From Oscillospiraceae bacterium (lineage in GTDB: Bacteria > Bacillota > Clostridia > Oscillospirales > Ruminococcaceae), in contig WQYC01000003.1 of assembly GCA_009781425.1 (NCBI GenBank), positions 1 through 64,000 on the forward strand: a stretch of DNA of 64,000 bases, given 5' to 3'. The notes beneath the pieces are model-generated. The model was not told the DNA's origin, searched no databases, and worked only from the letters and a program-made list of their open reading frames with translations. Of this stretch, positions 5,604-55,454 are shown in pieces (positions within the stretch are counted from its first letter, which is position 1; every line of letters starts with the position of its first letter). Position numbers and translations under genes: made by a program.

Positions 5604-6491
5604 ATGACGAGCGAAAACTTAAAAATTGCAAACAGAGTTGAAATCAGAACAGTAATAATTAATTTTTTATTAACAGCCGTGCAATTTGTAATCGGATTGC
5701 TGGCGGGCTCTGCCGCACTTATTTCCAGCGCAATACATACGCTGTCGGACGGCGCAACCACGATTATCGTAATCATCGGCGTTAATGTCGCGGGCAAGAA
5801 ATCCGACAAGTCGCACCAGTATGGACATGAACGGTTTGAGAGCGTGGCGTCGCTGATTATGGCGGTGATTTTGGCGATTGTCGGCTTCGGAATAGGCTAC
5901 AGCGCGGTCAGCGAAATCATCAACATCAGCAGAGGCGGCGAGTATGAGCCGATGTCAATGGAAATCGCCGCACTGATTATCGCCGGGCTTACTATCGCCG
6001 CAAAGGAATGGATGTTCTGGTACACCCGCGCCGCCGCTAAAAAAATTAACTCCACCGCACTCATGGCGGACGCGTGGCATTCCCGCTCCGACGCAATGGC
6101 GACAGTCGGTGCGTTTCTCGGTATACTCGGCGTGAAGATGGGCTTCCCTATACTTGACTCGGTTGCAGGACTGATTATCTGCGTGTTTATCGTGAAAACC
6201 GCTTTCGATATTTTTAGAGAAGCGACTAATCAAATGGTTGACAAAGCCTGCTCACCCGAAACTTTAGAGAAGCTCGAGGCTCTTATTTCCGAGCAGGACG
6301 GCGTAATGGGAATCGACGTAATCAGAACCCGCATATTCGGCGCGAAAATCTTTGTAGATATTGAAATCGCGGCGGACGGAAGCCTGTCACTGCACGAAGC
6401 GCACAAGATTGCAGAAAACGTACACGACGCGGTAGAAGCCGCGTTCAGCGAGGTCAAACACTGCATGGTACACGTGAACCCGGCGACGTAG
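5604..6491 (+). CDS. Cation diffusion facilitator family transporter
   Basis: A 295-residue CDF-family antiporter, which typically exports Zn, Fe, Mn or Co in exchange for protons. Membrane segments fill residues about 12-205, with metal-site signatures HTLSDG in the second helix and DAWHSRSDA in the fifth. A cytoplasmic C-terminal domain (about 210-295) ends SEVKHCMVHVNP. AAGGAG precedes the start. The metal cannot be told from sequence. The stop codon TAG is supplied by the first bases of a GTAGGG repeat (6488-6564), so the last codon or codons may have been altered when that element arrived. Confidence 0.9.
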   Translation: MTSENLKIANRVEIRTVIINFLLTAVQFVIGLLAGSAALISSAIHTLSDGATTIIVIIGVNVAGKKSDKSHQYGHERFESVASLIMAVILAIVGFGIGYSAVSEIINISRGGEYEPMSMEIAALIIAGLTIAAKEWMFWYTRAAAKKINSTALMADAWHSRSDAMATVGAFLGILGVKMGFPILDSVAGLIICVFIVKTAFDIFREATNQMVDKACSPETLEKLEALISEQDGVMGIDVIRTRIFGAKIFVDIEIAADGSLSLHEAHKIAENVHDAVEAAFSEVKHCMVHVNPAT

Positions 6492-6564
6492 GGAACGGAT
6501 TAATCCGTTCCGAAGCAGAACGCATGACGGTTTACACGGAAAACGTCGAAATGCTGTTCCCTAC
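6488..6564. repeat. GTAGGG-type paired palindromic element after the CDF gene
   Basis: This 77-bp element starts GTAGGGAAC and ends GTTCCCTAC. Its left unit contains a perfect 20-bp palindrome (6491-6510), GGAACGGATT then AATCCGTTCC. The T-A-G at positions 2-4 of the element is the stop codon of the preceding gene. It belongs to the dispersed family described in the findings. Confidence 0.8.
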
Positions 6565-6588
6565 AAACTCGTTTATTGAGGTTTAATA

Positions 6589-9500
6589 ATGGATTTCATA
6601 CATTTGCACGTTCATACAGAATACAGCCTCCTCGACGGCGCGTGCCGAATCAAGGAGCTTGTTCGTCGTGTAAAGGATTTAGGTCAGCGCGCCGTTGCAA
6701 TCACTGACCACGGCGTAATGTACGGCTGTGTAGATTTTTACGCGGAGTGTATTGCAAACGATATAAAGCCGATTATCGGCTGTGAGGTTTATGTCGCGCA
6801 GGGCTCGCGCCATGATAAAACAAGTGTGCGTGAAAAGCCGCCTTATCACTTAGTTTTGCTGTGCAAGGACAACTCGGGCTACAAAAATCTTGTGAAGCTT
6901 GTTTCCGACGCTTTCACCGAGGGCTTTTACAACAAGCCCCGCTGTGATAAAGAAACTCTGCGCCGCTATTCCAAAGGCTTAATCGCGCTTTCGGGTTGCT
7001 TGGCAGGGGAAATCCCGCGGCTTCTTTATGATGGCAAATACGACGAAGCGATTGAAGCCGCCCGTGAATACAATGAAATTTTCGAGCATTTTTATATCGA
7101 AGTTCAAGACCACGGCTTAAAAGAACAGCGCGAGATTCTGCCCGATTTATACAGGCTTTCCCGCGAAACGGGAATACCCTTAGTCGCTACGAACGACGCG
7201 CATTATATCACTAAAGCTGACGCACCTGTTCAGCGGATTTTAACCGCAATTGCGACCAACACGACTATAAACGAGAAATCGCTCGGCTTTGAAACTGATG
7301 AATTTTACGTTAAATCCGGTGAAGAAATGGCGCAGTTATTCAGGTATGACGCTCGTTCCTCGAATAAATTCGAGGAACTCGAAAACACCGTCAAAATCGC
7401 AGAAATGTGCAACGTTACTTTCGAGTTCGGCGTGTACAGATTGCCGGCTTTCAAAGCCGAAAATGTAAGCGATAACGCGGCTTTTCTGAAATCACAAGTT
7501 CAGAAAGGTTTAATCAAACGCTACGGCGAAAATTTCTCACAGGAAGTGCAGAACCGCGCAGATTTTGAGGTAGAATCCATTCAGAAAATGGGCTTCACGG
7601 ATTATTTTCTAATCGTCGCAGACTTCATTGCATACGCGCGAAAAAATAACATTCCTGTAGGTCCCGGGCGCGGCTCGGGAGTTGGCAGTATATCCGCTTA
7701 TGCGCTCGGAATCACCTCGATTGACCCTATGCGCTTCGGGCTTTTGTTCGAGCGGTTTTTGAACCCCGAAAGAATCTCAATGCCCGACTTCGATATAGAT
7801 TTATGTTATCGCCGGCGGCAGGAGGTTATCGACTATGTGACCCGAAAATACGGCTCTGACCACGTTGCGCAGATTATTACTTTCGGGACAATGGCGGCGC
7901 GGGCGGCTATCCGCGATGCAGGGCGGGCGATGGGCTTGCCTTACGGCAAGGTTGACAGCGCGGCGAAGCTGATTCCATTTGGCGCAAGCATTGAGGACTC
8001 GCTGAAACAGCAAAAAGAGCTCCGCGAAATGAAAGCGCAGGACGGCGAAATTGCGAGTCTGCTTGACACCGCACAAAAAATCGAGGGTATGCCGCGGCAC
8101 GGCTCAACCCACGCGGCAGGTATGGTGATTACCCGCGAGCCTGTGACCGATTTTGTACCTGTGCAGAAGAACGACAGCGATATTGTTACGCAGTACGCAA
8201 TGGGGCATTTGGAGAATCTCGGGCTGCTCAAAATGGACTTCTTGGGACTGCGTTACTTGACAGTCGTGCACGAAACTGCCGGGGCTGTTGGACTTGATGC
8301 CGAGCATTTCCCCGAAGCTGACGCGGAGGTCTACGCAATGCTCTCGCGCGGCGGAACGAGCGGCGTTTTCCAGTTTGAGAGCGCGGGTATGACGAATCTG
8401 CTGATTCGGCTCAAGCCCGAAAGCTTGGAGGATTTAACCGCCGCGATTTCCCTCTATCGCCCGGGTCCGATGGCTTCAATCCCGCGCTATATCGAAAGCC
8501 GCCATAACCCCGATAAAGTGCAGTACGCGCATGATTTACTGAAGCCTATTCTCGAAATGACCTACGGTTGTGTGGTTTATCAGGAGCAGGTAATGCAGAT
8601 TTGCAGGGAGCTTGCGGGCTATTCCTACGGCAGAGCGGACTTGGTTCGGCGCGCCATGAGCAAAAAAAAAGCTGACGTAATGCAAAAGGAGCGAGAAGCT
8701 TTTATTTCGGGCGCAAAGGAACGCGGAGTCTCCGAAGACACAGCGAATCAAATTTTCGAGGAATTATCGGGCTTCGCGGCGTACGCTTTCAACAAGAGCC
8801 ACGCGGCGGCGTATGCGTATTTAGCGTATCAGACGGCGTATCTGCGCTGTCATCACTACAAGGAATACATGGCGCGGCTGATGACGAGCGTGCTTGACAA
8901 CACAGACAAGCTGATTGAATACATTTCCGAGTGCGAACGGCAGGGTGTGAAAATTTTGCCGCCCGATATAAACAAAAGCTTCTTGGAATTCAACGTCTCC
9001 GTCGGAGCCGCCTCCTGCAAAGACGGCGGCATCCGCTTCGGGCTACTCGCGATTAAAAACCTCGGCGCAGGCGTTATAAAAGCTGTAATTAAAGAAAGAG
9101 AAAACGGTGAATACACCTCGCTTTACGACTTCTGTAAAAGACTGCAGGGCGGCGAGCTGAACAAGCGCGCAGTCGAAGCCTTAATCAAATCAGGCGCGTT
9201 CGACGGCTTTCTGCATAATCGCAGAAGTATGCTTATGGCTCATGAGGAAATGCTCGACGGGCTTTCGCAGAGCAGAGGAATCGAGGGGCAGTTAGACTTA
9301 TTCGGGCTTGCGGGCGATGATTCGGAAAACACCGAAATATATAAAATGCCCGAGGTTACTGAGTTCGAGCAGATGCAGTTATTGCAGATGGAAAAAGAAA
9401 CGCTCGGGATTTACATTTCGGGGCACCCGATTGAAAAATACGATTCTTACATAAAATTTCACAGTTTACCGCAAATCGGCGCAATTTTGAGCGACGCCGC

Positions 9501-9993
9501 TGAAGGCAACAGCGTCAATATAATTGCCATGCTCGTTTTTAAGAAGCAGTTCGTCACAAAGGCAGGTAAAACCATGTGCTTCGCCAACTTCGAGGATAAA
9601 ACAGGCAAAATCGAAGCGATTATTTTTAGCGACCTCTACGAAAAGGAAGCCGCGTTCCTGCACGTCGGCAGTATTTACGCGCTTTTCGGGAATATTTCCA
9701 CCAAGGAGGAGGAAGACGCGAAAATCATAATTAAAAGGCTCGAAAACAGCGATACTTTGCAATTCGCTGAACACAGTGCAGTTTTCATTAACTTAAATTC
9801 CGCAGAAACAGGTAAGTTAGCGCAGGTTGTTGAAATTCTGCGCAGTTTTGAGGGAACGCAAAAAGCACGCATTTGCTTTTCGGACACCCGCGAGGTTAAG
9901 TCGCCCAAAGGCATTTCGGGGGTAAATATCACAAAGGAATTGCTTCGAGCATTAGAAAAATTATGCGGAAAACCGAATATTAAGCTAAAATAA
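6589..9993 (+). CDS. dnaE: DNA polymerase III subunit alpha, DnaE type
   Basis: The 1134 residues match bacterial DnaE in length and order. The N-terminal PHP domain starts FIHLHVHTEYSLLDGACR. The palm carries the catalytic PDFDIDL near residue 400, with a GPGRGSGVGS motif just before. Next come the tandem helix-hairpin-helix region (about 800-880) and an OB-fold (about 960-1040, VNIIAMLVFKKQ). In Firmicutes a separate PolC is usually the main replicase and DnaE extends primers. The start has GAGG seven bases upstream and follows a palindromic repeat. No other replisome gene is adjacent. Confidence 0.97.
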   Translation: MDFIHLHVHTEYSLLDGACRIKELVRRVKDLGQRAVAITDHGVMYGCVDFYAECIANDIKPIIGCEVYVAQGSRHDKTSVREKPPYHLVLLCKDNSGYKNLVKLVSDAFTEGFYNKPRCDKETLRRYSKGLIALSGCLAGEIPRLLYDGKYDEAIEAAREYNEIFEHFYIEVQDHGLKEQREILPDLYRLSRETGIPLVATNDAHYITKADAPVQRILTAIATNTTINEKSLGFETDEFYVKSGEEMAQLFRYDARSSNKFEELENTVKIAEMCNVTFEFGVYRLPAFKAENVSDNAAFLKSQVQKGLIKRYGENFSQEVQNRADFEVESIQKMGFTDYFLIVADFIAYARKNNIPVGPGRGSGVGSISAYALGITSIDPMRFGLLFERFLNPERISMPDFDIDLCYRRRQEVIDYVTRKYGSDHVAQIITFGTMAARAAIRDAGRAMGLPYGKVDSAAKLIPFGASIEDSLKQQKELREMKAQDGEIASLLDTAQKIEGMPRHGSTHAAGMVITREPVTDFVPVQKNDSDIVTQYAMGHLENLGLLKMDFLGLRYLTVVHETAGAVGLDAEHFPEADAEVYAMLSRGGTSGVFQFESAGMTNLLIRLKPESLEDLTAAISLYRPGPMASIPRYIESRHNPDKVQYAHDLLKPILEMTYGCVVYQEQVMQICRELAGYSYGRADLVRRAMSKKKADVMQKEREAFISGAKERGVSEDTANQIFEELSGFAAYAFNKSHAAAYAYLAYQTAYLRCHHYKEYMARLMTSVLDNTDKLIEYISECERQGVKILPPDINKSFLEFNVSVGAASCKDGGIRFGLLAIKNLGAGVIKAVIKERENGEYTSLYDFCKRLQGGELNKRAVEALIKSGAFDGFLHNRRSMLMAHEEMLDGLSQSRGIEGQLDLFGLAGDDSENTEIYKMPEVTEFEQMQLLQMEKETLGIYISGHPIEKYDSYIKFHSLPQIGAILSDAAEGNSVNIIAMLVFKKQFVTKAGKTMCFANFEDKTGKIEAIIFSDLYEKEAAFLHVGSIYALFGNISTKEEEDAKIIIKRLENSDTLQFAEHSAVFINLNSAETGKLAQVVEILRSFEGTQKARICFSDTREVKSPKGISGVNITKELLRALEKLCGKPNIKLK

Positions 9994-10003
9994 AATAAAA
10001 GAC

Positions 10004-10032
10004 TTGACGTTTATTTATTAATGTAGTATATT
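10004..10032 (+). promoter_or_regulatory. Sigma-A promoter for pfkA
   Basis: TTGACG, 17 bases, TATATT; it ends 42 bases before the pfkA start. Confidence 0.7.
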
Positions 10033-10074
10033 TATTATGGATAATAACGATAATTTACATAACGGAGAAGAAAT

Positions 10075-11034
10075 ATGAAAAAAATCGGAATCTTAACAAG
10101 CGGCGGAGACGCTCCCGGCATGAATGCCGCAATAAGAGCAGTAACGAGAACAGCCTTAAAGCACGGCATGACCGTCATGGGGATACGCAGAGGCTTCAAC
10201 GGGCTCATCAACGGCGACATGGTTGAGCTTGGAATCCGCAGTGTTTCAGACATAATCCAACGCGGCGGTACGATTTTATACACTGCGCGTTGCAACGAGT
10301 TCCGCTTTGAAGAGGGCTTGCAAAAAGCGAAAGCCACCTGCATTAAAGAGGGGATTGAAGGGCTGATTGTCCTCGGCGGAGACGGCTCTTTCAGAGGTGC
10401 GGCAGACTTATCGGCGCGCGGGATTCCCTGCGTTGCGATTCCCTGTACGATTGACAACGACATCTCTATGACCGAGTATACAATCGGCTATGATACCGCC
10501 ATGAATACAGCAATGCTGCTGATTGACAAGCTTCGCGACACTACGCAGAGCCATGACCGCTGCTCGGTGGTTGAGGTTATGGGCAGGCACGCGGGGCATA
10601 TCGCAGTAAACACAGGCATAGCCACAGGCGCGACGCATATTTTAACCGAGGAAGTGCCGTATTCTGTTGACGACGTAATCGAGCGTATACAAAACACGCA
10701 GACCACAGGTAAGCACCATTTCATCATAGTTGTGTCTGAAGGAATCGGGAACTCGCAGGACATAGCCAAGAAAATCGAGCAAGCGACAGGCGTTGAAACC
10801 CGCGCGACAATTTTAGGGCACGTTCAGCGCGGCGGCTCGCCCACAGTGCGCGACAGAGTAGTTGCAAGCCAGCTCGGGCACTGCGCTGTTGAGCTACTTA
10901 ATCAGGGCTACAGCAACCGCGTAATCGGCACGAAGCACGGAAATATAATCGACTACGATATACAAGAAGCACTTTCTATGAAGAAGTCGTTTGAGAACGA
11001 CTTGTACAGAATAGCAATGGATATTAGTTTTTAA
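10075..11034 (+). CDS. pfkA: ATP-dependent 6-phosphofructokinase
   Basis: It phosphorylates fructose 6-phosphate at C1, the committed step of glycolysis, in the cytoplasm. The 319 residues match the short bacterial PfkA. Visible motifs are ILTSGGDAPGMNAAIRA (ATP site), VLGGDGSFRGA with Gly at the position that distinguishes ATP- from pyrophosphate-dependent enzymes, the catalytic PCTIDND, VEVMGRHAGHIA and LGHVQRGGSPT. CGGAGAAG precedes the start. It has its own promoter and stands apart from pyruvate kinase, with which it is often linked in Firmicutes. Confidence 0.97.
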   Translation: MKKIGILTSGGDAPGMNAAIRAVTRTALKHGMTVMGIRRGFNGLINGDMVELGIRSVSDIIQRGGTILYTARCNEFRFEEGLQKAKATCIKEGIEGLIVLGGDGSFRGAADLSARGIPCVAIPCTIDNDISMTEYTIGYDTAMNTAMLLIDKLRDTTQSHDRCSVVEVMGRHAGHIAVNTGIATGATHILTEEVPYSVDDVIERIQNTQTTGKHHFIIVVSEGIGNSQDIAKKIEQATGVETRATILGHVQRGGSPTVRDRVVASQLGHCAVELLNQGYSNRVIGTKHGNIIDYDIQEALSMKKSFENDLYRIAMDISF

Positions 11035-11054
11035 ATTATAGTTGGTAAAAAATT

Positions 11055-11150
11055 ACAGAGTAGGGATTTGAGCGTTAAGTGTTGTCTGAACGGAGAGTTG
11101 TCAGACGAACGAAGGCTTTGCGCCGCGATTCATTTTCCGCATCTCGCTGT
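11055..11150 (+). ncRNA. Tetrahydrofolate (THF) riboswitch aptamer
   Basis: The sequence follows the folT-type THF riboswitch: AGAGTAG, GCGTTAAGTG, a hairpin GTCTGA...TCAGAC, ACGAAGGC, GCGCCGCGATTCAT and CCGCATCTC. The outer stem pairs ACAG at 11055 with CTGT at 11150. The downstream gene is a folate-type ECF transporter component, the usual target. Identification is by recalled consensus. Confidence 0.87.
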
Positions 11151-11167
11151 ACATAATAATTAGGAAT

Positions 11168-11218
11168 ATAAACTATTTCTTCTTGTTGGTGTGCAAAAAT
11201 TAAGGAGGAATAGTTTAT
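11168..11218 (+). promoter_or_regulatory. Long stem hiding the ribosome site and AUG of the folate transporter gene
   Basis: Bases 11168-11184 pair with 11202-11218 over 17 consecutive pairs (two are G-U), leaving a 17-base loop. The 3' arm contains AAGGAGG and the first two bases of the start codon. This is a ready-made translation-off structure directly downstream of the THF aptamer and is its likely expression platform. Confidence 0.7.
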
Positions 11219-11846
11219 GAAATTTTTAACGATGTTCCGCGATTCCGCAAACGAACTGAAGAGCCCCCGCTGTTTAGCAACTACGGGGATTTTAAGTGCA
11301 CTCTATATCGTGCTGAACGCTTATGTGATGCTTCCGCTCGGGGAAACTTTAAGAATCACCTTCGGCTACCTCGCACTCGCTGTAATCGGAATGTTATATG
11401 GTCCTGTTGTTACGGTTTTAGCGGCAATCCCGTGCGATATTTTCGCAGCATTGCTTAATCCCAATTACGCAATGAACCTCGCATGGGTTCCTAACAGAAT
11501 GTTGGAAGGATTGATTTACGGCGTTTTTCTTTACGGACTTATGAAAACAAGCAATAAGAATTCTACCTTAAATGCAATAGTATTTGCGCTGAAAATTATA
11601 ATAGCAAGATTGATTGTGGTGGTTTTATGCTATTTTATAATCAATTCTTTTCTCACGCTGATTGTATTCTCGCCGGCGAGCGCGGCGGGGCAGTCGTTTT
11701 GGGTTTGGGCGTGGGTTCGGTCAGGCGTGAAGAGTATATCGCAGTTTCCGATAGATATGATACTGTTATTCGCTTTACTACCTATAATAAACACTGCATA
11801 TCACAGAGCACTGCGAGGTTTCGGGCGGGAAAGGAAAAACACATGA
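11217..11846 (+). CDS. folT: Folate-type ECF transporter substrate-binding (S) component
   Basis: A 209-residue membrane protein with about six hydrophobic segments. It has the features of the FolT/ECF S-component group: ISALYIVLNAY...LPLGETLRITFGYLALAVIGMLYGP near the N-terminus and a conserved NPNYAMNLAWVPNRMLEGLIYG loop. It would bind folate and work with the shared EcfA/EcfA'/EcfT module, which is not in this window. Folate as ligand is inferred from the THF riboswitch in front of it. Translation is probably controlled by the stem that hides its ribosome site. It overlaps proC by 4 bases. Confidence 0.85.
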   Translation: MKFLTMFRDSANELKSPRCLATTGILSALYIVLNAYVMLPLGETLRITFGYLALAVIGMLYGPVVTVLAAIPCDIFAALLNPNYAMNLAWVPNRMLEGLIYGVFLYGLMKTSNKNSTLNAIVFALKIIIARLIVVVLCYFIINSFLTLIVFSPASAAGQSFWVWAWVRSGVKSISQFPIDMILLFALLPIINTAYHRALRGFGRERKNT

Positions 11847-12661
11847 CGGCTTTAAGCTTAGGCTTCATCGGCGCGGGAAACATGGGCTTCGCGTTGATTA
11901 AAGGTTTTCAGAATTGGGTTTCAGCTTCGGAAAAGTCGCGTGAAGTAAAGCTTCATATTTACGACGCGCTCCCCGAAAAGCGCGAAGAACTGAAAAACAA
12001 AGGCTTTTCCGTGCTTGAAAGCGAGATTGAAATTGCAAAAAGGTGCAAATATATAGTCTTAGCCTGCAAGCCTCAGCAGCTTTCCGAGCTGCTTGAAAAA
12101 ATAAAAAGCTTCATCACAGCGGAAACTGTGCTCGTTTCGCTATGTGCGGGGATTTCAGCGGAGTTTATCTGTAGCAAAACAAGCGAAAACGCAAAAGTAA
12201 TTCTTGTAATGCCGAATATGCCCATGCTTCTCGGCGCGGGCGCGAGCGCAATTTCATGCAACGCCGCGGTAAGCGGCGAGGAATTCGCCTTTGCGGGCAC
12301 GGTAATCGAGAGCTGCAGCGCAGTTGAGGTCATTCCGCTTGATAAAATGAACGAAATTATCTGCATTAACGCGAGCTCGCCTGCTTTTATTTATCTGTTC
12401 TCGAAGTGCTTCGCTGATTACGCGGCAGAGCAGGGCATTGACGAAAAGTCCGCGTTGAACCTGTTCGCGAAGACGCTTATAGGCGCGTCGAAAATGCTGA
12501 CAGATTCGGGCTTCGGGGTAGATGAATTGATTTCGCAGGTGTCTTCAAAGGGCGGGACTACGCTTGCGGGGCTTGAGCAGTTGCGCTTGGGCGGGCTTGA
12601 AGTTATCGTGAAAAATGCCTGCGAAGCCTGCACAAAAAGAGCGTATGAACTCGGAAAATAA
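11843..12661 (+). CDS. proC: Pyrroline-5-carboxylate reductase
   Basis: It reduces 1-pyrroline-5-carboxylate to proline with NAD(P)H. The 272 residues begin MTALSLGFIGAGNMGFALIKG, a Rossmann motif, and include VILVMPNMPMLLGAGASAI and the C-terminal signature VSSKGGTTLAGLEQLRLGGL. The start is the ATG overlapping the stop of the upstream transporter (ATGA), with AAAGGA upstream. A much longer in-frame opening runs through the transporter gene and is not used. Because of the overlap it may share the THF riboswitch's control of the transporter, an unusual pairing for a proline gene. Confidence 0.93.
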   Translation: MTALSLGFIGAGNMGFALIKGFQNWVSASEKSREVKLHIYDALPEKREELKNKGFSVLESEIEIAKRCKYIVLACKPQQLSELLEKIKSFITAETVLVSLCAGISAEFICSKTSENAKVILVMPNMPMLLGAGASAISCNAAVSGEEFAFAGTVIESCSAVEVIPLDKMNEIICINASSPAFIYLFSKCFADYAAEQGIDEKSALNLFAKTLIGASKMLTDSGFGVDELISQVSSKGGTTLAGLEQLRLGGLEVIVKNACEACTKRAYELGK

Positions 12662-12679
12662 AAATATTTTATTTTGCTA

Positions 12680-12708
12680 TTGACAAACGAAAAAACGTAT
12701 GTTATAAT
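12680..12708 (+). promoter_or_regulatory. Sigma-A promoter for infC-rpmI-rplT
   Basis: A consensus TTGACA is followed after 17 bases by TATAAT. Transcription would begin near 12715, giving a leader of about 140 bases before infC. Confidence 0.9.
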
Positions 12709-12714
12709 AATTTG

Positions 12715-12840
12715 GTAAATAAAAGTAGAGATTTCTCTCACCCGCCGTTTTAAAAGTAGCGTGCGCGGTCGTTTACTTAATCTTAATTAATAATTTTGAT
12801 TATGTTAGGCGTGGAGAAATATCTCCACGTTTTAGTTTTT
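12715..12840 (+). promoter_or_regulatory. L20-type leader with intrinsic attenuator
   Basis: The leader ends in a terminator: CGTGGAGA (12810-12817), loop AATA, TCTCCACG (12822-12829), then TTTTAGTTTTT. It lies between the promoter and infC. In Bacillus and relatives ribosomal protein L20 controls this operon through such a leader. The terminator is seen directly; L20 binding is inferred from position and gene order. Confidence 0.75.
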
Positions 12841-12855
12841 GGAAGGAGAGTGCGG

Positions 12856-13383: not shown

Positions 13384-13408
13384 CAAAATACGAGGAGGTA
13401 ACTAAAAA

Positions 13409-13615: not shown

Positions 13616-13622
13616 ACTGACC

Positions 13623-13675
13623 GTAGGGAACGCATTAATGCGTTCCGCAGCGGAACGGATGAATCCGTTCCCTAC
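13623..13675. repeat. GTAGGG-type paired palindromic element between rpmI and rplT
   Basis: 53 bp with two head-to-head units: left unit GTAGGGAACGCATT with AATGCGTTCCG, spacer CAG, right unit ending GTTCCCTAC. Each unit forms its own hairpin, and the ends GTAGGGAACG/CGTTCCCTAC can also pair. It sits inside a ribosomal protein operon without disrupting either gene. Confidence 0.85.
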
Positions 13676-13705
13676 AATTTCAAACAATCAGGAGGAATAT
13701 AAACT

Positions 13706-14059: not shown

Positions 14060-14076
14060 ACTGTACAAAACCGCTA

Positions 14077-47795: not shown

Positions 47796-50248
47796 GAAAA
47801 ATTATAAAAATTATTGCGGCGGTGTTGATGATGAGTTTGCTTTTGAGTGCTTGCGGCGGAAAAACAGAAGAACCCGATGATGTAGGGAACGACGTCCCCG
47901 GCGTTCCGCAAGAAGAAACGCAACAAACAGCAGAAATCGCCCGTGAAAATTATCGCATTTCAATAGTTAATAATCAATTCGTTGTTGACGGCGATAAGCC
48001 TATTTGGATTAACGGCACGAACACGCCGTGGGACAGTTGGGACGACTTCGGCGGTAATTATAACGCGCAGTTTTGGGACGAGCACTTCGCGGCTCTGCGC
48101 GCCAACGGCGTTAACGCCTCGCGCGTTTGGATTAGCTGTCGAAACAATTTTGATGCAATCAAAATTAGCGAAAACGGCATGATTACAGGCATAACTGATA
48201 AGTTTTGGGAGGACTTGGATTCTTATTTCGAGATTGCCGAGCGCCACGGAATTTATATTATGGCAACGCTGATTTCCTTTGACCACTTCAAGGAATACCA
48301 CGGCGACTGGGCTTGGATGGGCCGTCCGCACCCGCATGAAGCGTGGCGCAAAATGATGCAATCCGAGGAAGCTATAAATTCTTTCATCGAGCATTATACT
48401 CTGCCATTTATTGAGAGATACAAGGATAATCCGTTCCTTTGGAGCATTGACCTCATGAACGAGCCGGACTGGGTGCATGAGGACAGCGAAATCGGGAAAA
48501 TGTCTTGGAATGATATTTCGCACTTCTTTGCACGGAACGCCGCCGCGATTAAAGAAAACGCGCCTGAAATTTTAGTCACAGTCGGCATGGCGTTCCCTAA
48601 GTACAACTCCGATGGCTCGGGCTATGAGGGGAACAAGGTTTCGGACGCGTTCCTGCAAAGCCTCTACAGCAACCCGAACGCCTACATTGACTTTTGGTCG
48701 CCGCACTATTACGACTGGGTTGGGCCGTGGTACGGTGTGCCGTTTACGTCGAGTCCTTACGGCGCGCGCAGTGATGGCGGTTGGGGCTTGTGCGATTCAA
48801 AGCCTGCAGTCCTCGGCGAAACCACAGCCAACGGCTCAGCAGGCTTCACGCTGATTGAGGACTACGAAAACGCTTTTAATAACGGCTGGCAGGGCGTTAT
48901 GGCGTGGACCTCAAACGGCGTTGACGGTAACGGCGGCTTCAATGAGCAAACGACTGCAACCCGCCATATGGCGGAGAAATACCCCGAATTAGTTTTCCCG
49001 CTATCTGTTGGGAACGCCGCTCCCGGCGTTCCGTCCGATAACGCGCAGCCTGTAAATATCGACGCGGGACAATTGCCATTGTCCCCTACAGATGTCGAGG
49101 GCTTAACTTCAAACGAACTCGTAGGCTTAATGGGTGCAGGTTGGAACTTAGGCAACACGCTTGATGCGCACTGGAACGCGCGTCCGTGGCGGGAAATTGA
49201 AGGTGCACACACGATTGAGACGCTTTGGGGGAATCCCGTGACGACAAAGGCGATGATTGATTTTGTGAAGGAATCGGGCTTCAACACAGTTAGAATCCCG
49301 ACGACATATTACATATTCACAGGCGACGCGCCCGATTATAAAATCGACGAGGCGTGGCTTGACAGAGTTCAAGAGATTGTTGATTACGTAATCGACAATG
49401 AAATGTTCTGCATTATAAACATTCATCACGACGATTTAATTATCGGCGGCGACTTTGAAAACGGCTGGCTTGAGCTGTATAACGGCAGGGAAAACCGCGC
49501 GTTGTCAGCTTCGGAAAAAGCCGCTAAGCATGAGCGTTTCGCCGCGCTTTGGACGCAGATTGCCGAGCGGTTCAAGGACTATCCCGAAACGTTGATTTTC
49601 GAGGGAATTAACGAGCCGCACAGCAGAAGCGTGAACGGCAGATACAACGCGGAAATTTGGGCGGAGCAGTCGCAGTTTCTGAACGAGCTTTTACAGACTT
49701 TTGTTGACACCGTGCGCGTTTCAAACCCCGACAGACACCTCATGATTACGCCTTATTACGCGGCAGTCGGCATGGACGCAGGTGACCGTGACGGCAGAAT
49801 CGCAGGCTTCGTAAACGCTGAAACAGGGCGGCTTTTCGTGAATGACGCGCGAGAAAGATTAATCGTTTCACTGCATTATTACGAGCCGTGGGGCTTCGTC
49901 ACTGCGCCTGACGATTCGCAGTGGTTCAGCGCGCATTTTGACATGGAGGTCGGCAGTGTTTCGCACAATATGAACGCGCTTGTCAGAATTATCGAAGAGA
50001 ATTTCGTTGCTAATAATATTCCCGTAATCATGGGCGAAACGGGTGCGATTGCGAGAATCATGCCCGACGGAAGCTCTAACGAAGCAGAGCGCGCGAAGTG
50101 GGCGGCGCATTATGTCGGCGCAATGAGCGAGCTCGGCGTTCCTGTTATAATTTGGGACGACGGCGGCGCGTTTGAGCTACTTGACAGAAGAGCAGTACAG
50201 TGGAAATATCCCGAGCTGGCGCGGGCTTTAGTTGAGGCGGCGAGGTAG
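47792..50248 (+). CDS. Lipoprotein with two GH5 catalytic domains (mannanase-like plus endoglucanase)
   Basis: 818 residues. A lipoprotein signal peptide ends LLLSACGG (lipid on Cys21). Domain 1 (about 53-400) resembles GH5 mannanases (ISIVNNQFVVDGDKPIWING), with acid/base E224 in DLMNEPDW and nucleophile E343 in AVLGETTANG. Domain 2 (about 438-815) is GH5_4-like (GAGWNLGNTLDAHW), with E608 in FEGINEPH and E749 in VIMGETGAI. Both pairs are intact. Anchored on the outer membrane face, it would release mannan and beta-glucan oligosaccharides for the cytoplasmic enzymes. Two GTAGGG-type units are translated, one just after the lipobox (VGNDVPGVP) and one in the linker between domains (VGNAAPGVP). 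Confidence 0.92.
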   Translation: MRKIIKIIAAVLMMSLLLSACGGKTEEPDDVGNDVPGVPQEETQQTAEIARENYRISIVNNQFVVDGDKPIWINGTNTPWDSWDDFGGNYNAQFWDEHFAALRANGVNASRVWISCRNNFDAIKISENGMITGITDKFWEDLDSYFEIAERHGIYIMATLISFDHFKEYHGDWAWMGRPHPHEAWRKMMQSEEAINSFIEHYTLPFIERYKDNPFLWSIDLMNEPDWVHEDSEIGKMSWNDISHFFARNAAAIKENAPEILVTVGMAFPKYNSDGSGYEGNKVSDAFLQSLYSNPNAYIDFWSPHYYDWVGPWYGVPFTSSPYGARSDGGWGLCDSKPAVLGETTANGSAGFTLIEDYENAFNNGWQGVMAWTSNGVDGNGGFNEQTTATRHMAEKYPELVFPLSVGNAAPGVPSDNAQPVNIDAGQLPLSPTDVEGLTSNELVGLMGAGWNLGNTLDAHWNARPWREIEGAHTIETLWGNPVTTKAMIDFVKESGFNTVRIPTTYYIFTGDAPDYKIDEAWLDRVQEIVDYVIDNEMFCIINIHHDDLIIGGDFENGWLELYNGRENRALSASEKAAKHERFAALWTQIAERFKDYPETLIFEGINEPHSRSVNGRYNAEIWAEQSQFLNELLQTFVDTVRVSNPDRHLMITPYYAAVGMDAGDRDGRIAGFVNAETGRLFVNDARERLIVSLHYYEPWGFVTAPDDSQWFSAHFDMEVGSVSHNMNALVRIIEENFVANNIPVIMGETGAIARIMPDGSSNEAERAKWAAHYVGAMSELGVPVIIWDDGGAFELLDRRAVQWKYPELARALVEAAR
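47882..47908 (+). repeat. Single 27-bp GTAGGG unit near the start of the twin-GH5 gene
   Basis: GTAGGGAACGACGTCC then CCGGCGTTCCG, nine codons, read VGNDVPGVP in the spacer after the lipid anchor. Confidence 0.8.
49007..49089. repeat. GTAGGG-type paired element in the linker of the twin-GH5 gene
   Basis: 83 bp: left unit GTTGGGAACGCCG to CGGCGTTCCG (VGNAAPGVP), about 32 bases of spacer, right unit GGGACAATTG/CATTGTCCCCTAC in opposite orientation. It codes for most of the linker joining the two catalytic domains. Confidence 0.75.
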
Positions 50249-50259
50249 TGAATATGAAG

Positions 50260-50283
50260 AAAAACCCCCGTGAGGGGGTTTTT
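50260..50283. terminator. Bidirectional terminator after the twin-GH5 gene
   Basis: AAAAACCCCC and GGGGGTTTTT form a 10-bp stem with loop GTGA. It lies between converging genes and can serve both. Confidence 0.93.
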
Positions 50284-50291
50284 GATTAAAA

Positions 50292-50978
50292 CTACTCTTG
50301 CAAGTCAGGGGCGTTAAGGTTTTTTCCGCAATCGGCACAACTTAGAGAAGTGAAATGGTTTTCAAACCTACAAAACTTACATATTTTTATGTTTTTTGAT
50401 ATTATTTTTTCCTTTTCTTTCTCTTTAGAAACAGGTAAATTTTCACCGCAACTACTGCAAAGAGTAGCATTTATGGCGTTATCATTACTGCAGAAATTAC
50501 ATTTTTTCATCTTTTTGCTGACCAGTGATTTATATTCAATATGTTGATTATTTGATATAATTAAACGTATTATTGAAAGTATCGCTTCTACTATAAAGAT
50601 GAATGTGAAAAAGGATAAAACAGAAGATAAAATTACAACTTCCCTTGTTTGTTCTGAATTGTTAAAGATAAAACGGATACTTATTATCAAAAAAGAAAAA
50701 GCAACAGCAAGGAATAAATTAAATATATAAGAGGTTTTTGTGCCGAAAAAGAAACCTTTGATAAAATCAACGATTTTATCATCAGAAATATTTTTATTTA
50801 ATTTTAGCCGCAGTCCGAAAATTATAGCACGATACCCCGACCATATAAATGCTAATACAATCGGAAAAATTATTAAATTACTGCTTAAATCCATATTTGA
50901 AAAAATATCTTGCCGAATGAAAAGATATATTGTAGCAATTAATGCATTTAATAACGCGAGAAAGTCTATTATTATCAT
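50292..50978 (-). CDS. Membrane protein with two C-terminal zinc ribbons
   Basis: 228 residues, unknown function. Four hydrophobic segments (about 4-20, 33-50, 88-105 and 118-140) are followed by two zinc ribbons: CNFCSNDNAINATLCSSCG and CKFCRFENHFTSLSCADCG. It is strongly AT-rich compared with the surrounding genes. GGAGGG precedes the start, and a consensus promoter lies about 35 bases upstream. It is transcribed alone and shares a terminator with the twin-GH5 operon. Confidence 0.8.
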   Translation of the reverse strand: MIIIDFLALLNALIATIYLFIRQDIFSNMDLSSNLIIFPIVLAFIWSGYRAIIFGLRLKLNKNISDDKIVDFIKGFFFGTKTSYIFNLFLAVAFSFLIISIRFIFNNSEQTREVVILSSVLSFFTFIFIVEAILSIIRLIISNNQHIEYKSLVSKKMKKCNFCSNDNAINATLCSSCGENLPVSKEKEKEKIISKNIKICKFCRFENHFTSLSCADCGKNLNAPDLQE

Positions 50979-51010
50979 TAGAAAAACCCTCCAAAATTGT
51001 ATTTTACCAA

Positions 51011-51039
51011 ATTATAGCATATAAAAACACAAAAGTCAA
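51011..51039 (-). promoter_or_regulatory. Sigma-A promoter for the zinc-ribbon membrane protein
   Basis: On the minus strand TTGACT, 17 bases, TATAAT. Confidence 0.85.
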
Positions 51040-51107
51040 GCATACGTCAACTATAAAATCTTATATGTCGACACAACGTAATATATAATTACATTGAGGT
51101 GATTATT

Positions 51108-51416
51108 ATGTATTACATTGAATTTGGAGAGATTTTAAGAGCGACAAGGCTTGAAAAAGGGCTTAGTCAAGCCAAATTAGCCGCATTGGTGGGTCTTACC
51201 AAGGCGGCTATAAGTAAGTACGAAACTTCTGTAAATTACCCTGCTTACAACATACTTATCCGTTTCGCGCGGGTTTTCAAAGTGTCAACGGATTATCTAC
51301 TCGGTGTAGAAAAAAGAAAAACCCTCAACATTGAGGGCTTAACTAATAAACAAATCGACTCGCTGATTGCGATTGCGAGCGAATATCAAAGGCTGAACGG
51401 GAATTTCACCGATTGA
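51108..51416 (+). CDS. XRE-family helix-turn-helix regulator
   Basis: 102 residues. The HTH (about 5-62) reads FGEILRATRLEKGLSQAKLAALVGLTKAAISKYE, followed by FKVSTDYLLGVEKR, typical of Cro/C1-type regulators. A short C-terminal helix region (EGLTNKQIDSLIAIASEYQRL) may dimerise. I use ATG 51108, preceded by GAGGTG; a GTG 9 bases upstream is part of that ribosome site. TATAAT at 51084-51089 is a possible -10. It lies directly before GH115 and is a candidate for its regulator, or for its own divergent region. Confidence 0.9.
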   Translation: MYYIEFGEILRATRLEKGLSQAKLAALVGLTKAAISKYETSVNYPAYNILIRFARVFKVSTDYLLGVEKRKTLNIEGLTNKQIDSLIAIASEYQRLNGNFTD

Positions 51417-51441
51417 CTTTTCCCCTCCGCCGTGCTATACT
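51413..51441 (+). promoter_or_regulatory. Sigma-A promoter for GH115
   Basis: TTGACT, 17 bases, TATACT. The -35 box overlaps the stop codon of the upstream regulator gene. Confidence 0.85.
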
Positions 51442-51473
51442 TAAACTTATCTTAACATAAAAAGGACAAATTC

Positions 51474-54248
51474 ATGAACAATTTCACATTTACAGTCGAA
51501 AATCAAGCCTTCGAGGGCGTAAAAAGAATCGCAGTAAAAATCGCGAAGGACTTTGAGAAGGTTGGCGGCGTTCTGCCGCAGATTACAGAAGAGTTCAAGG
51601 ACGGCACGAATTCTATAGTTTTTGCAACGCTTGGGAAGAGTGCGTTCGCTGAGAAATACGCTGATATTCCTGCGCTGACAGGGAAGCGCGAGGTTTATCA
51701 AATCAAGCGTCTTGAAGACAAAACCCTGCTCATTTGTGGCAGTGACAAGCGCGGAACTATTTACGGAATGTTTGCGCTGTCGGAATATATCGGCGTTTCA
51801 CCGCTACACTTTTGGGGCGATGCAGAGCCTGTTCCGCGCAAAAAAATCGAAATTAATTCGGACATAGAAGTAATTTCAAAGCAGCCGAGCGTGAAGTATC
51901 GCGGGTTTTTCATAAACGACGAGTGGCCCTGCTTCGGTAGCTGGACGTTCGGGAAATTCGGCGGCTTCACCGCCGAGATGTACGACCATGTTTTTGAGCT
52001 TTTACTGCGGCTGAAAGGGAATTACCTGTGGCCCGCAATGTGGACATCGTCGTTTCCGCTTGATGGGCCGGGAAGCTTAAACGAAGAGCTTGCGGATATT
52101 TACGGCGTTGTTATGGGTATGTCGCACCACGAGCCCTGCCTGCGTGCGAGCGAGGAATGGGACATCGTGCGCGGTGAAAACTCGCAGTACGGCAACGACT
52201 GGAATTATTATATCAACAAAGAAGGGCTGTTGAAATACTGGGGTGACGGGCTCGCGAGAAGCGGCAAGTACGAGAAAATAATCACAATCGGTATGCGCGG
52301 CGAACGCGACAGTTCTATGCTCGGCGAGAACGCAACGCTCAAGGATAATATTGATTTGCTGAAGGATATAATTGAAAATCAGAACAGATTAATTCGCGAA
52401 AACGTGAATGAGAATTTAGAAGAAGTTCCGCGTCTGCTCGCGCTTTACAAGGAAGTCGAGGAGTACTTCTACGGCAACGAGGACGCCGCAGGTTTAAAAG
52501 ACTGGGAGGAACTCAACAACGTAATCTGTATGCTTTGCGAGGATAATTTCGGCTTCATGAGAACCCTGCCGACTGCCGATGTGCGCAGTCGTAATGGGGG
52601 TTGGGGAATGTATTATCACTTCGATTATCACGGCGGTCCTGTTTCCTATGAGTGGATGCCGTCGACTTCCTTCGAGCGGACTTGGGAGCAGATGAGCATG
52701 GCTTACGACTACGGAATCCGCGATGTTTGGATTGTAAACGTCGGCGACTTAAAAGGCAACGAGGTTCCGCTTGCGTACTTCATGGAGCTCGCTTATGACT
52801 TCGAGAAATGGGGAACAAGCGCGCCGAATTCTATTGATGAATACACGGCTTTGTGGCTTGAAAAAACCTTCCCCTGTGTTGAATCCACAACTCGCAAGGA
52901 CATGGCGAATGTTCTTCACGGCTACATAAAAATGAACGCTCTGCGCCGCCCCGAAGCGTTAAACGCTGAGATTTATCACCCTTGCAACTACGACGAAGCA
53001 GATTGGATGTTATGCTTAACAGAGCGTATAGAAAAAGCGAACGAAAGCATTTATTCATCGCTTTCGGGTGTTGAAAAAGACGCCTATTACAGCTTAATCG
53101 GCTTACCTGTGCAGGCGAGTGTGAACCTTGTTCGTATGCATTTGTATGCAGGAAAAAATATGCACTACGCAAAGCAAGGCAAAAAAGCTGCGAATGAATT
53201 TGCCGCGCTTGTGACTGATTGCATTGAAAAAGACCGAGTTATAATGCGGGAATTTGGGAATTTCAAAAACGGCAAGTGGCGCGGAATGGAGCAGGAGCAG
53301 CACATCGGCTTCACGACCTGGAACGAGGATGGCTGCCGCTATCCGCTGCGCGTAACAGTCGAGCCGTTTCATAAGCCGCGCATGGTTGTTTCCCGCGCCG
53401 ACAGCGCGGAAATTTATCACAAAACTTATGGCGCACCCATGACAGTTAAGGTTGACGATTTTCTTTATGTGGGCAACGAAGAGGTGTTAATTGAAATTTG
53501 CAATGATGGCATCGGCGAGCTTAAATATGAAATTAAACCCGAAAAGGATTACAACTGGCTTACTGTAAACCCTCTTGATGACGGCATAATTCTGAATTGC
53601 AACCGTGAAAAATTAACCGATGAAATTCAAACTGCGCGGCTTTTAATTCGCGACGAAGAAACCACAGTAGCTGTCGAAGTTCGCGCGAAAGCCGTAAGCA
53701 CCGAGAACCTGCCGCCCATGACGTTTCTTGAAAACAACGGCGTAATAGTTATGCACGCTAATCATTTCTGCGCGAAAAATAACGTCGGCGAAGCGGGCTT
53801 CATCGAGCTCGAAAATTACGGCAGAAGCGGAACAGGCATGAAGGTTTTCCCGACGACTGCGGATTTCACCGAAGCTGACAAAAAGCCCGAGCTGACCTAC
53901 AGATTCTTAGCTCCGTCAAGCGGCGATTATATCGTTGAAGCTTGGACGACGCCGACGAATTCTGTGCAGAATAAACGTCCTCTGCGCTTCATGCTGAACG
54001 AAAAAATAATTACCGCTGTTCCCGCCGATTTCCGCGCGGGAAGCCCCGGCGAGCCAAGATGGTGCAAAGGCGTGCTTGATAATATCCGCGTTACGAAGGC
54101 AGAATTAACGCTTGAAGCGGGCGTGCGTGAAGTTAAAATCGGCGCGCTTGAAGCGGGGTTAATTCTTGAAAAGCTGTTGATTTACAAGAAAAACAACGAG
54201 CCTAAGAAGTCATACTTAGGCCCGCAGGAGAGCTTTTATGTAAAATAA
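51474..54248 (+). CDS. GH115 xylan alpha-1,2-glucuronidase, cytoplasmic
   Basis: 924 residues. GH115 enzymes remove (4-O-methyl)glucuronic acid from xylan. The N-terminal domain (LLICGSDKRGTIYGMFALSEYIGVSPLHFWGDAEPV) leads to the catalytic barrel with YRGFFINDEWPCFGSWT, LLLRLKGNYLWPAMWTSSFPLDG, GVVMGMSHHEPCLRASEEWD and TIGMRGERDSSML. C-terminal beta domains follow from about residue 600. There is no signal peptide, so it would act on imported acidic xylo-oligosaccharides. It has its own promoter and follows an XRE regulator. It ends 1 base before a palindromic unit. Confidence 0.93.
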   Translation: MNNFTFTVENQAFEGVKRIAVKIAKDFEKVGGVLPQITEEFKDGTNSIVFATLGKSAFAEKYADIPALTGKREVYQIKRLEDKTLLICGSDKRGTIYGMFALSEYIGVSPLHFWGDAEPVPRKKIEINSDIEVISKQPSVKYRGFFINDEWPCFGSWTFGKFGGFTAEMYDHVFELLLRLKGNYLWPAMWTSSFPLDGPGSLNEELADIYGVVMGMSHHEPCLRASEEWDIVRGENSQYGNDWNYYINKEGLLKYWGDGLARSGKYEKIITIGMRGERDSSMLGENATLKDNIDLLKDIIENQNRLIRENVNENLEEVPRLLALYKEVEEYFYGNEDAAGLKDWEELNNVICMLCEDNFGFMRTLPTADVRSRNGGWGMYYHFDYHGGPVSYEWMPSTSFERTWEQMSMAYDYGIRDVWIVNVGDLKGNEVPLAYFMELAYDFEKWGTSAPNSIDEYTALWLEKTFPCVESTTRKDMANVLHGYIKMNALRRPEALNAEIYHPCNYDEADWMLCLTERIEKANESIYSSLSGVEKDAYYSLIGLPVQASVNLVRMHLYAGKNMHYAKQGKKAANEFAALVTDCIEKDRVIMREFGNFKNGKWRGMEQEQHIGFTTWNEDGCRYPLRVTVEPFHKPRMVVSRADSAEIYHKTYGAPMTVKVDDFLYVGNEEVLIEICNDGIGELKYEIKPEKDYNWLTVNPLDDGIILNCNREKLTDEIQTARLLIRDEETTVAVEVRAKAVSTENLPPMTFLENNGVIVMHANHFCAKNNVGEAGFIELENYGRSGTGMKVFPTTADFTEADKKPELTYRFLAPSSGDYIVEAWTTPTNSVQNKRPLRFMLNEKIITAVPADFRAGSPGEPRWCKGVLDNIRVTKAELTLEAGVREVKIGALEAGLILEKLLIYKKNNEPKKSYLGPQESFYVK

Positions 54249-54249
54249 T

Positions 54250-54277
54250 GTAGGGGTGGATTCTATATCCGCCCTAC
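54250..54277. repeat. Symmetrical GTAGGG element between GH115 and the J-protein gene
   Basis: GTAGGGGTGGAT, short loop, ATCCGCCCTAC: 28 bp with GTAG at both ends. On the minus strand its TAG (54274-54276) is the stop codon of the J-domain gene. Confidence 0.8.
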
Positions 54278-55413
54278 ACAATTTTCAAAACCTCAAGCCA
54301 GTCAATCTGCAAATAATTGCTTAAATCTGCATCTTCTCCGAAGCCGCCGAGAAGCACGCTCCGCAGTGCGTCTATATCGTCTGCGCCGCTAATAATCCAG
54401 TTTGCAACGGGGCGGCTAAAACGAAGCACTATTGTCGCAGATAAATACTCGGCAGGAATTTCTTTCATTATATCGCTCATGTATTCGCTGTAAATCTGCG
54501 GTACGAGCGATATATTATTTTCGTCAACAGCCTGCATAAGAATCATTTTCCGCGCACCTGTACGTAAATGCTCGAGTATTTTTTCTTCTGTGAGCTTGAA
54601 AATATTTTCGATGTTCAAGCTTGTAACTTCTATAGTTACCTCCGCACTGCTGAAGCCGTGCCGCACAGTTGAAAGCACCTTGAATCGCAATTCGTTCGGC
54701 GTGCTTGAAAACAAGATTTCACCGAAAGGAACGCCGCCCCGTTCAAAGGCGTAAACTCGCGAAATGCGTGATATTAATCTCGTGATTTGCGTGTGATTAT
54801 CGTACTGCGAGCTTCTCGCGAGGCTCATTGCGCGCTCAAAATCTTCTTCCTTTATACTGTCGAAAAACATTTTTGTCACTTCGGCGGGCGTCCCTCTGCC
54901 GTAAATTCTGTCAAGAAAATTCGCGACATAATTCGCGTTGGTAATATACCCGACAGCGAAGAAAAGCAGTAAAACAGGGAGCGTCAGCCGAATCGCCCAC
55001 ACAAGCGTCATGATTCTGCGCGCCTTTTCCGAGCTTGTTGTTTTAGGCTTGAATATATTCAAATCGAACGGGAATTTAAACTTTGATTTTTTACTTGCGT
55101 TGTCGTAATATTTTTGCCAAGGCGATTTATACTCTTCGGAACCGCGCGGATTATAATCGCCGAATTCATTGGAGTAGTCGGCGTTTTTCTGCGCTCTCTC
55201 CTCGAGCCACAGTGAATAATCGTATTCCTCGCGCAGTGCGTCGTTACTTAGAACGCGGTAAGCCGCGTTGATTTGCTGCATTTTCTCGTGCGCATAATCA
55301 ACGCACCCCTCGGAAACGTCGGGGTGATATTTTTTCGCCATGTTTTTGTAGGCGTTTTTTATTTCGTCGTCGGAGGCATCGCGGGAAATCCCGAAAAATT
55401 CATAATGATTCAT
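54274..55413 (-). CDS. J-domain membrane protein
   Basis: 379 residues. An N-terminal J domain (1-70: MNHYEFFGISRDASDDEIKN, KKYHPDVSEG with HPD) is followed by a linker and one membrane helix (about 135-160, LTLPVLLLFFAVGYI). A soluble domain of unknown type (about 170-379) follows. It would recruit DnaK to a membrane site. No ribosome site precedes the ATG: the seven bases before it follow directly on the T-run of a hairpin made by a GTAGGG unit. The stop codon also lies in such a unit, so the gene is bracketed by two elements. Confidence 0.82.
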   Translation of the reverse strand: MNHYEFFGISRDASDDEIKNAYKNMAKKYHPDVSEGCVDYAHEKMQQINAAYRVLSNDALREEYDYSLWLEERAQKNADYSNEFGDYNPRGSEEYKSPWQKYYDNASKKSKFKFPFDLNIFKPKTTSSEKARRIMTLVWAIRLTLPVLLLFFAVGYITNANYVANFLDRIYGRGTPAEVTKMFFDSIKEEDFERAMSLARSSQYDNHTQITRLISRISRVYAFERGGVPFGEILFSSTPNELRFKVLSTVRHGFSSAEVTIEVTSLNIENIFKLTEEKILEHLRTGARKMILMQAVDENNISLVPQIYSEYMSDIMKEIPAEYLSATIVLRFSRPVANWIISGADDIDALRSVLLGGFGEDADLSNYLQIDWLEVLKIV

Positions 55414-55419
55414 AGTAGT

Positions 55420-55454
55420 AAAAAAAGCGGTCGGGCGTGGAAGCCCGACCCTAC
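55420..55454 (-). terminator. GTAGGG unit acting as terminator after the hydrogenase-MCP gene
   Basis: On the minus strand GTAG is followed by GGTCGGGC, loop TTCCAC, GCCCGACC, GC and seven T. This is a complete intrinsic terminator built from a repeat unit, 18 bases after the stop of the gene at 55473. Confidence 0.88.

Follow-up and report, generated by a model that had tools for sequence, protein, structure and literature searches.

Repeats that carry GTAG at one end of a hairpin were described by Di Nocera et al. (2013, PMC3733652) as GTAG REPs (repetitive extragenic palindromes). They form inverted dimers, they are accompanied in most host species by a gene for a REP-associated tyrosine transposase (RAYT), and, in phyla other than the one considered here, REPs are also reported within genes for DNA repair, DNA ligase and tRNA-related functions. 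RAYTs, or TnpA-REP proteins, are divided into subclasses, among them subclass 2.4, which is the same as Bertels group 4 (Quentin et al. 2018, PMC6006769); and in the classical REPtron a RAYT gene lies between two REPs in inverted orientation (Nunvar et al. 2010, PMC2817692). The TnpA-REP proteins of E. coli and other species (PMC8266576), together with the patterns described here, are the source of what we suppose below about binding, mobilization and specificity. The subject of this report is a family of such elements in an Oscillospiraceae bacterium (assembly GCA_009781425.1), scattered through the first 64,000 nucleotides of contig WQYC01000003.1, a stretch we refer to as the window. The units are GTAG-type REP elements, present singly or as head-to-head pairs resembling BIMEs (bacterial interspersed mosaic elements) and REPINs (REP doublets forming hairpins), and they are very likely copied in trans by the RAYT of the same genome, encoded at positions 120393-120938 of contig C1. 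A bolder reading, quite possible in our view if short of probable, is that in this clostridial RAYT group the enzyme carries its target twice within itself: its open reading frame (ORF) holds an inverted pair of units, one before and one after the HuH segment, whose members remain matched through sequence turnover, which would make enzyme and target evolve as a single replicator, and the units serve also as a mobile Val-Gly peptide-coding module of 24 or 27 nucleotides (nt) in the loops and linkers of housekeeping proteins.

Counting both strands, GTAGGG occurs 22 times in the window against 10.1 expected, a number reached in none of 100 shuffles. Units in which it is followed by a hairpin of at least seven Watson-Crick pairs number 10, against a mean of 0.19 and a maximum of 1 in 100 dinucleotide shuffles. 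The original prediction had listed ten loci of one modular design, and had offered a comparison with random sequence of the same composition as a check; all ten loci contain such sequence, and the shuffles yield far fewer units. The list overlooked one further unit, at 18122-18145, and a looser rule, one that carries no shuffle control, brings the total in the window to 14. The listed loci had been said to share a design that starts with GTAGGG; the one at 49007 starts with GTTGGG instead. The division into single units and head-to-head pairs stands in general, with the provisos that the right-hand partner at 6488 is badly decayed and that the locus at 54250 is one hairpin tagged at both ends.

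To see the units in larger number we used a sample of 460 kb, 18% of the genome, made up of the window and 396 kb from contigs C1, C2, C4 and C5. It holds 65 units, 57 of which begin with exact GTAGGG, again by a rule without shuffle control. Each consists of GTAG, a hairpin whose foot is formed by G-C pairs and then, usually, a G, and 54 of the 57 exact units are 24, 25 or 27 nt long. In pairs the units stand head to head, with GTAGGG facing outward at each end: of the pairs of neighbors within 70 nt of each other, 10 are arranged in this way, one is tail to tail and none is on the same strand. The stems vary from copy to copy yet remain paired, as had been predicted. Pairs 3–8 are formed in 93%, 100% and 93% of cells in the distinct exact units of 24, 25 and 27 nt (n = 12, 12 and 23; G-T allowed), percentages that are partly built in by the pairing rule with which the units were chosen, whereas the maxima were 86%, 92% and 71% when the 3′ arms were reassigned among units at random 1000 times. 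Because pairing falls when the arms are exchanged, the stem sequences do differ. Searched against Rfam at gathering cut-offs, the units went unmatched; a known RNA family was discarded as an identity for them, the only match in the window being a tetrahydrofolate (THF) riboswitch at 11054-11151 (84.1 bits), upstream of an ORF at 11217.

Over the whole genome (here G000; 2.55 Mb in 67 contigs, estimated 97.7% complete), the pattern GTAGGGN{10,60}CCCTAC is found at 76 places and its reversed control at one. With GTAG immediately 5′ of a short hairpin, and with copies both numerous and dispersed (76 pair places; 65 units in 460 kb), these are GTAG REPs. The original prediction had inferred a mobile, non-autonomous or RNA-level class of element; non-autonomous they are, with an enzyme that likely acts in trans, but the class is not a new one, being of the GTAG-REP/RAYT kind. 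In a group of 60 genomes that includes our own, pair places number 76 in G000, 46 in G017, 41 in G020, 15 in G040, 13 in G021 and 12 in G012, and from 0 to 4 in all the others. The stem families differ among the pair-rich species.

The suggestion that a RAYT be sought in trans led to one gene. It lies on the minus strand of contig C1 and encodes 182 residues with the motifs MPNHIHM, WQ and YIDENP. Its match to NCBIfam NF047646 (E 3e-13, 50.5 bits) is below the curated cut-off of 80, and since that model by itself mixes IS200 proteins with RAYTs (20 of the 60 genomes match at E 0.01, none above the cut-off), an alignment of 21 RAYT proteins was used instead, the present one included, to which it matches with E 1e-71 over C1:120402-120938. 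The family profile matches the E. coli TnpA-REP protein in structure 4er8 (E 1.3e-12), a RAYT bound to its REP hairpin, and the same entry is the top PDB match (E 2.7e-7) of the model predicted for our protein (mean predicted local distance difference test, pLDDT, 85.2). The motif columns P, N, H, H, W and Q are invariant or nearly so in 92 sequences. Of the motifs given for subclass 2.4, NH[IFV]H and WQ are present, as PNHIH and WQ in our protein, and the tyrosine motif (YIDENP in our protein, YIDxNP in consensus) is one position off the published YIxNNP; this comparison is one of motifs. RAYT genes and pairs go together: six of the 60 genomes have both a RAYT and at least 10 pairs, four have a RAYT only, none has the pairs only and 50 have neither (Fisher 4.2e-6). 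For the 36 genomes of the same genus the corresponding numbers are 5, 2, 0 and 29 (Fisher 5.6e-5), and the highest count in any of the 60 that lacks a RAYT is 4.

The RAYT genes themselves contain units. For this part of the work we took the best 80 of 525 confirmed relatives, mostly Clostridia by title and with a few of the loci coming from one assembly, dropped two that had no ORF with the motifs (L121 and L124), and added nine genes from the group, leaving out RAYT fragments in G004, G056, G021 and G027, to arrive at 87 genes, the set to which the proportions below apply. Units recur at two sites in them. Site 1 precedes the first long helix and has GTAGGG on the coding strand; site 2 is the loop after the HuH strand, and there the orientation is opposite. 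Strict units occupy site 1 in 49 genes, site 2 in 56 and both in 42, the last of these a floor, given that the strict hairpin rule is conservative and overlooks the units of our own RAYT; a loose motif rule, used without a control, finds both sites filled in 66 of the 87. By reading, our own RAYT has one unit at each site and one more just downstream, and its predicted model places site 1 in the loop that joins two short strands and site 2 in a disordered loop, with pLDDT <50 at residues 111-118. The outer span of the inverted pair inside the ORF is 175–341 nt in the 42 genes.

The two internal units of a gene match each other. Compared in inverted orientation their identity is 0.92 within genes and 0.485 between genes, and 10,000 permutations gave no value as high (maximum 0.607); in 33 of the 42 genes the gene's own partner unit is the best or joint best match. 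Where site 1 differs between two genes, site 2 generally differs in mirror fashion: 819 of 1099 differences are so matched, in 119 pairs of genes with core identity of at least 55%, pairs that are not independent of one another. In 47 of the 49 genes with a strict unit at site 1, the tag there is translated as GTA GGG, Val-Gly, and at site 2 the unit is read from the other strand and in two frames (42 and 14 of the 56), which is why the peptides differ while the DNA matches. Judged from the sequences, the pattern points to constraint or copying at the level of DNA. Units near these genes give a mixed picture. The flanks of the 42 genes, taken to 4 kb at most, hold 64 units in 19 loci, with a mean identity of 64% to the units of the gene they accompany and 50% to those of others. 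In one locus (L066, Bacillota MES5), copies of both RAYT-internal units, identical over the bases compared, lie 0.4–0.6 kb downstream of the gene, perhaps the result of a partial RAYT duplication. The RAYT gene of Fonticella tunisiensis has nine similar units around it, at distances of up to about 1 kb.

Much of this has precedents. The literature already describes GTAG REPs, BIMEs, RAYTs and REPtrons, as well as REPs located within RAYT genes and within host genes. With the GTAG REPs of PMC3733652 our units share the tag, the inverted dimers, the use of TAG as a stop codon, some in-frame copies in genes and the association with a RAYT; the hosts named there are Proteobacteria, Cyanobacteria, Chloroflexi and the PVC (Planctomycetes-Verrucomicrobia-Chlamydiae) group, and a search of that paper for the terms Firmicutes and Clostridia found neither. 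As in the REPtron of PMC2817692 there are two inverted REPs to each RAYT, but here the inverted pair is within the ORF rather than outside it. The in-frame REPs reported for subclass 2.4 between HuH and Y (PMC6006769) correspond to our site 2, where 56 of the 87 genes have a strict unit; the opposite, matching unit at site 1 does not appear in the passages searched of that paper, the Table 1 of which gives no beta1:alphaA insertion for 2.4, and the RAYT-bearing taxa here, unlike those of that subclass, are mostly Clostridia. The palindromic elements of Rickettsia, as recounted in PMC3733652, are likewise in-frame palindromes in many proteins, but their tag is CGTC and not GTAG, and no dedicated transposase goes with them. 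In the literature passages searched we found no second internal unit, no inverted matching pair, no mirrored change and no length class among in-gene copies.

That last property emerges from the copies in ordinary genes. Genes were called with a simple hexamer scorer; it missed a TrmFO gene, the two units of which were reassigned by hand to the in-gene set, and four N-terminal units (at residue 6 or less) were scored as not in-gene. By this calling 23 of the 57 exact units are confidently in genes, about 40%—REPs are mostly intergenic according to PMC3733652—2 are in the RAYT gene, and 32 are outside genes, at gene edges or N-terminally uncertain. Seventeen of the 23 are read in sense frame 0, the Val-Gly frame (binomial 3.8e-8 against 1/5, with the two units of a pair not independent), one in sense frame 1, none in sense frame 2, which would make TAG a stop, and five are antisense. 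Lengths divisible by three are seen in 22 of the 23 (24 or 27 nt in 21) and in 14 of the 32 others (Fisher 4.4e-5); units of the 25-nt family, with stems of GCAT and GGAT type, lie outside genes or at their ends, apart from one uncertain N-terminal case. Outside the window there are 17 confident in-gene units, and the genes of 14 of these were scanned with Pfam. Families were found for 11: threonyl-tRNA synthetase, IPP transferase, MutL, DUF4093, phage Rha-type, radical-SAM/UPF0004, IF-2, sensor kinase, glycosyl transferase family 3, NAD-dependent DNA ligase (LigA) and a Sua5-type protein. Inside the window the unit-bearing genes are TrmFO-type, HflX and glycoside hydrolase family 5 (GH5), a location the original prediction did not mention.

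Compared with orthologous sites in related genomes, the units come and go. Between rpmI and rplT a head-to-head pair of 25-nt units, one of GCAT and one of GGAT type, occupies 13623-13675; thirteen genomes with rplT were found, one of them (G003) was excluded because its genes are on split contigs, and the pair is missing in all 12 relatives aligned, G077 having a different single unit in the gap. A pair at 44302-44365 lies inside the HflX gene, with its left unit in frame (VGNDALGV…). Three relatives align across this part, other matches beginning after it, and of these G077 has a short loop in its place and G012 and G026 have other sequence. The same gene is ended by the TAG of a single plus-strand unit at 45543-45567. 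Two units, head to head, stand on either side of the DnaJ-domain gene at 54274-55413: a single hairpin with the GTAG tag at both ends, in double-foot form, at 54250-54277, and a 27-nt minus-strand unit, GTAGGGTCGGGCTTCCACGCCCGACCG, at 55428-55454. Each unit is absent in G026 and so is the gene, leaving about 75 nt between the aligned neighboring blocks. Beyond them, the protein encoded at 55473-57392 is a sensor-like fusion of iron-only hydrogenase C-terminal, 4Fe-4S and methyl-accepting signaling domains.

Two units lie on the minus strand inside the TrmFO/GidA-like gene (17440-18819), for which 13 of the 58 relatives that have a match were aligned as protein. The 27-nt unit GTAGGGAACGGCGTCCCCGACGTTCCG at 18594-18620 has no counterpart in the 13; it adds a net three residues relative to 11 of them, G020 having three other residues nearby and G021 being shorter. 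The 24-nt unit at 18122-18145, GTAGGGGCGCGCACTGCGCGTCCG, makes no net change of length, and G012 has the palindrome there but no tag. At 6488-6512 the plus-strand unit GTAGGGAACGGATTAATCCGTTCCG, with a decayed opposite unit that ends at 6564, provides in its TAG the stop codon of a cation-efflux gene (5604-6491); in G069 and G026 this upstream gene ends differently and the unit is absent. The TAG of a single 27-nt unit at 46765-46791 (plus strand) ends a GH4 gene, and at this site G012 carries a 27-nt unit with another stem and a GTAGAG tag, and G026 carries none. The GH5 gene (47792-50248) contains, in frame, a 27-nt unit close to the N-terminus of its protein (47882-47908, plus strand), where G012 has other sequence, and farther on a decayed head-to-head pair (49007-49089) whose left unit is the one that begins GTTGGG. 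The comparison of orthologous loci that the original prediction called for is thus favorable at rpmI-rplT, at HflX in G077 and at DnaJ in G026, where sites are empty or different, and less so at 18122 and 46765, where G012 has a related palindrome.

How might such units spread? We suppose that the RAYT recognizes GTAG and its hairpin on single-stranded DNA, and that it would cut and rejoin hairpin DNA as has been published for E. coli TnpA-REP, so spreading both units and pairs; mobilization by the genome's own enzyme is inferred. The inverted pair in the RAYT gene is likely a resident cognate copy that keeps enzyme and target together as they move. Within genes, a newly arrived copy is likely retained only if it is divisible by three in length and encodes residues that a loop or linker can tolerate; after a stop codon, copies would be retained with less restriction. 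Several window units resemble units inside RAYT genes: the one at 18594 contains a 14-base core, CGGCGTCCCCGACG, common to the two internal units of our own RAYT; that at 18122 has one mismatch to a unit inside the RAYT gene of G040; and that at 55428 is one base from a unit inside the RAYT gene of the related species G020. Since units of this genome resemble those within the RAYTs of G020, G040 and G017, the sequences suggest a quicker turnover of the enzymes than of the repeats, and the older families, those of 25-nt units, were probably left by RAYTs lost from the genome or missing in the assembly.

Could the hairpins be kept instead as signals in RNA, terminators or stabilizers of mRNA 3′ ends, and not as mobile DNA? 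We think this improbable. Nine of the 65 units overlap the 3′ end of a gene, 17 were called in co-directional gaps (two of these being the TrmFO units that the gene caller missed), and those at 6488, 45543 and 46765 supply the stop codon. The best case is 55428: it is followed on the minus strand by CTTTTTTT, comes right after the minus-strand gene 55473-57392, which it ends, and tops the terminator-like list for 43000-58000, so that its use as an intrinsic terminator is plausible. It is alone in this, however, no other window unit appearing in the lists for 5000-20000 and 43000-58000; of the 57 exact units taken on both strands, 114 combinations in all, only 7 have a T-rich 3′ context (at least five T within 14 nt after the hairpin); some 40% of exact units are inside genes; sites in relatives lack units; and within a single genus the count varies by species from 76 to 0. 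The copy at 55428 may well serve as a terminator, and such use at one site is compatible with mobility. Less probable again is that the in-gene copies represent a peptide motif selected for protein function, with the palindrome secondary. The shared Val-Gly frame of 17 of the 23 in-gene units, far beyond the 1/5 of chance, is what one would expect of such a motif, but the encoded peptides vary from gene to gene, units of the same kinds occur also outside genes, and the copies inside RAYT genes, on opposite strands, encode different peptides from DNA that is 92% identical when inverted.

The least credible of the alternatives is that the units are moved by an IS200/IS605 TnpA rather than a RAYT. 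Both enzymes are Y1 HUH proteins that bind hairpins, and IS200-type genes are common, PF01797 being matched in 25 of the 60 genomes (weak fragments and RAYTs included); but our own genome has no PF01797 match, and relatives with strong, full-length IS200-type genes have 0–3 pairs. IS200 was rejected as the mover. The strong PF01797 matches in relatives are mostly to open frames of 135–176 amino acids, and the four of these that were read have the motif CPDHIHML and lie in genomes poor in pairs or free of them. G014 has seven IS200-type transposase genes, six of them equal in score, and no pairs: IS200 copies, that is, without REPs.

Copying of the units by a RAYT, which we prefer to all of these, has to be weighed against a number of facts. 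The statistics that join RAYTs to pairs ignore phylogeny, and G000, G012, G017 and G020 look closely related. Four RAYT-positive genomes are poor in pairs (G004 0, G027 0, G048 3 and G056 4; the RAYTs of G004 and G056 are fragments), and in 12 named RAYT genomes pairs do not always exceed the reversed control. The counts, pairs against control, are 90/11 in Chakrabartyella piscis, 53/16 in Gemmiger formicilis MCC627, 19/11 in G. formicilis DFI.6.10, 23/6 in Oscillospiraceae Mx356_bin29, 22/10 in Anaerosolibacter carboniphilus, 14/16 in Chloroflexi GWB2, 9/1 in Ruminococcus flavefaciens SAb67, 7/6 in Bacillota MES5, 7/1 in Spirochaetes Nc150P4bin23, 4/13 in Fonticella tunisiensis, 1/1 in Tissierellales MAG-65 and 0/17 in Acetobacterium fimetarium; a RAYT, then, is not always accompanied by many pairs. 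The commonest family in our sample, the 25-nt GCAT/GGAT units, is not the one inside our own RAYT and matches the internal units of the G017 enzyme instead. Both sites are without a strict unit in 24 of the 87 RAYT genes; flank units were found for 19 of the 42 with both, and only 26 of the 64 reach 80% identity to the gene's own units. At least one unit, moreover, has a terminator-like context. Finally, none of the sites compared showed a clean insertion boundary. A 27-nt unit adds only three residues net in TrmFO, and also in threonyl-tRNA synthetase (C1:5221-7035, compared with G012 and G020), and in-gene units look as if they overwrite sequence or were trimmed afterwards. No target-site duplication of the kind expected of a MITE (miniature inverted-repeat transposable element) was noticed by eye at the aligned sites, where no systematic search was made. 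In the C. piscis chromosome (G087:C1:846244-847193), five GTAGGG…CCCTAC pairs stand about 220 bases apart, apparently as a tandem array of one pair.

These observations speak to the question of how REPs spread, and of how RAYTs remain specific for them despite the divergence of REPs. With two matching targets in the RAYT gene, the likely cognate target can be read for each enzyme from its own gene, and this over dozens of diverse enzymes. The copies in host genes, for their part, amount to a natural record of protein loops that accept eight or nine foreign residues, in proteins that include an aminoacyl-tRNA synthetase, MutL, DNA ligase and IF-2.

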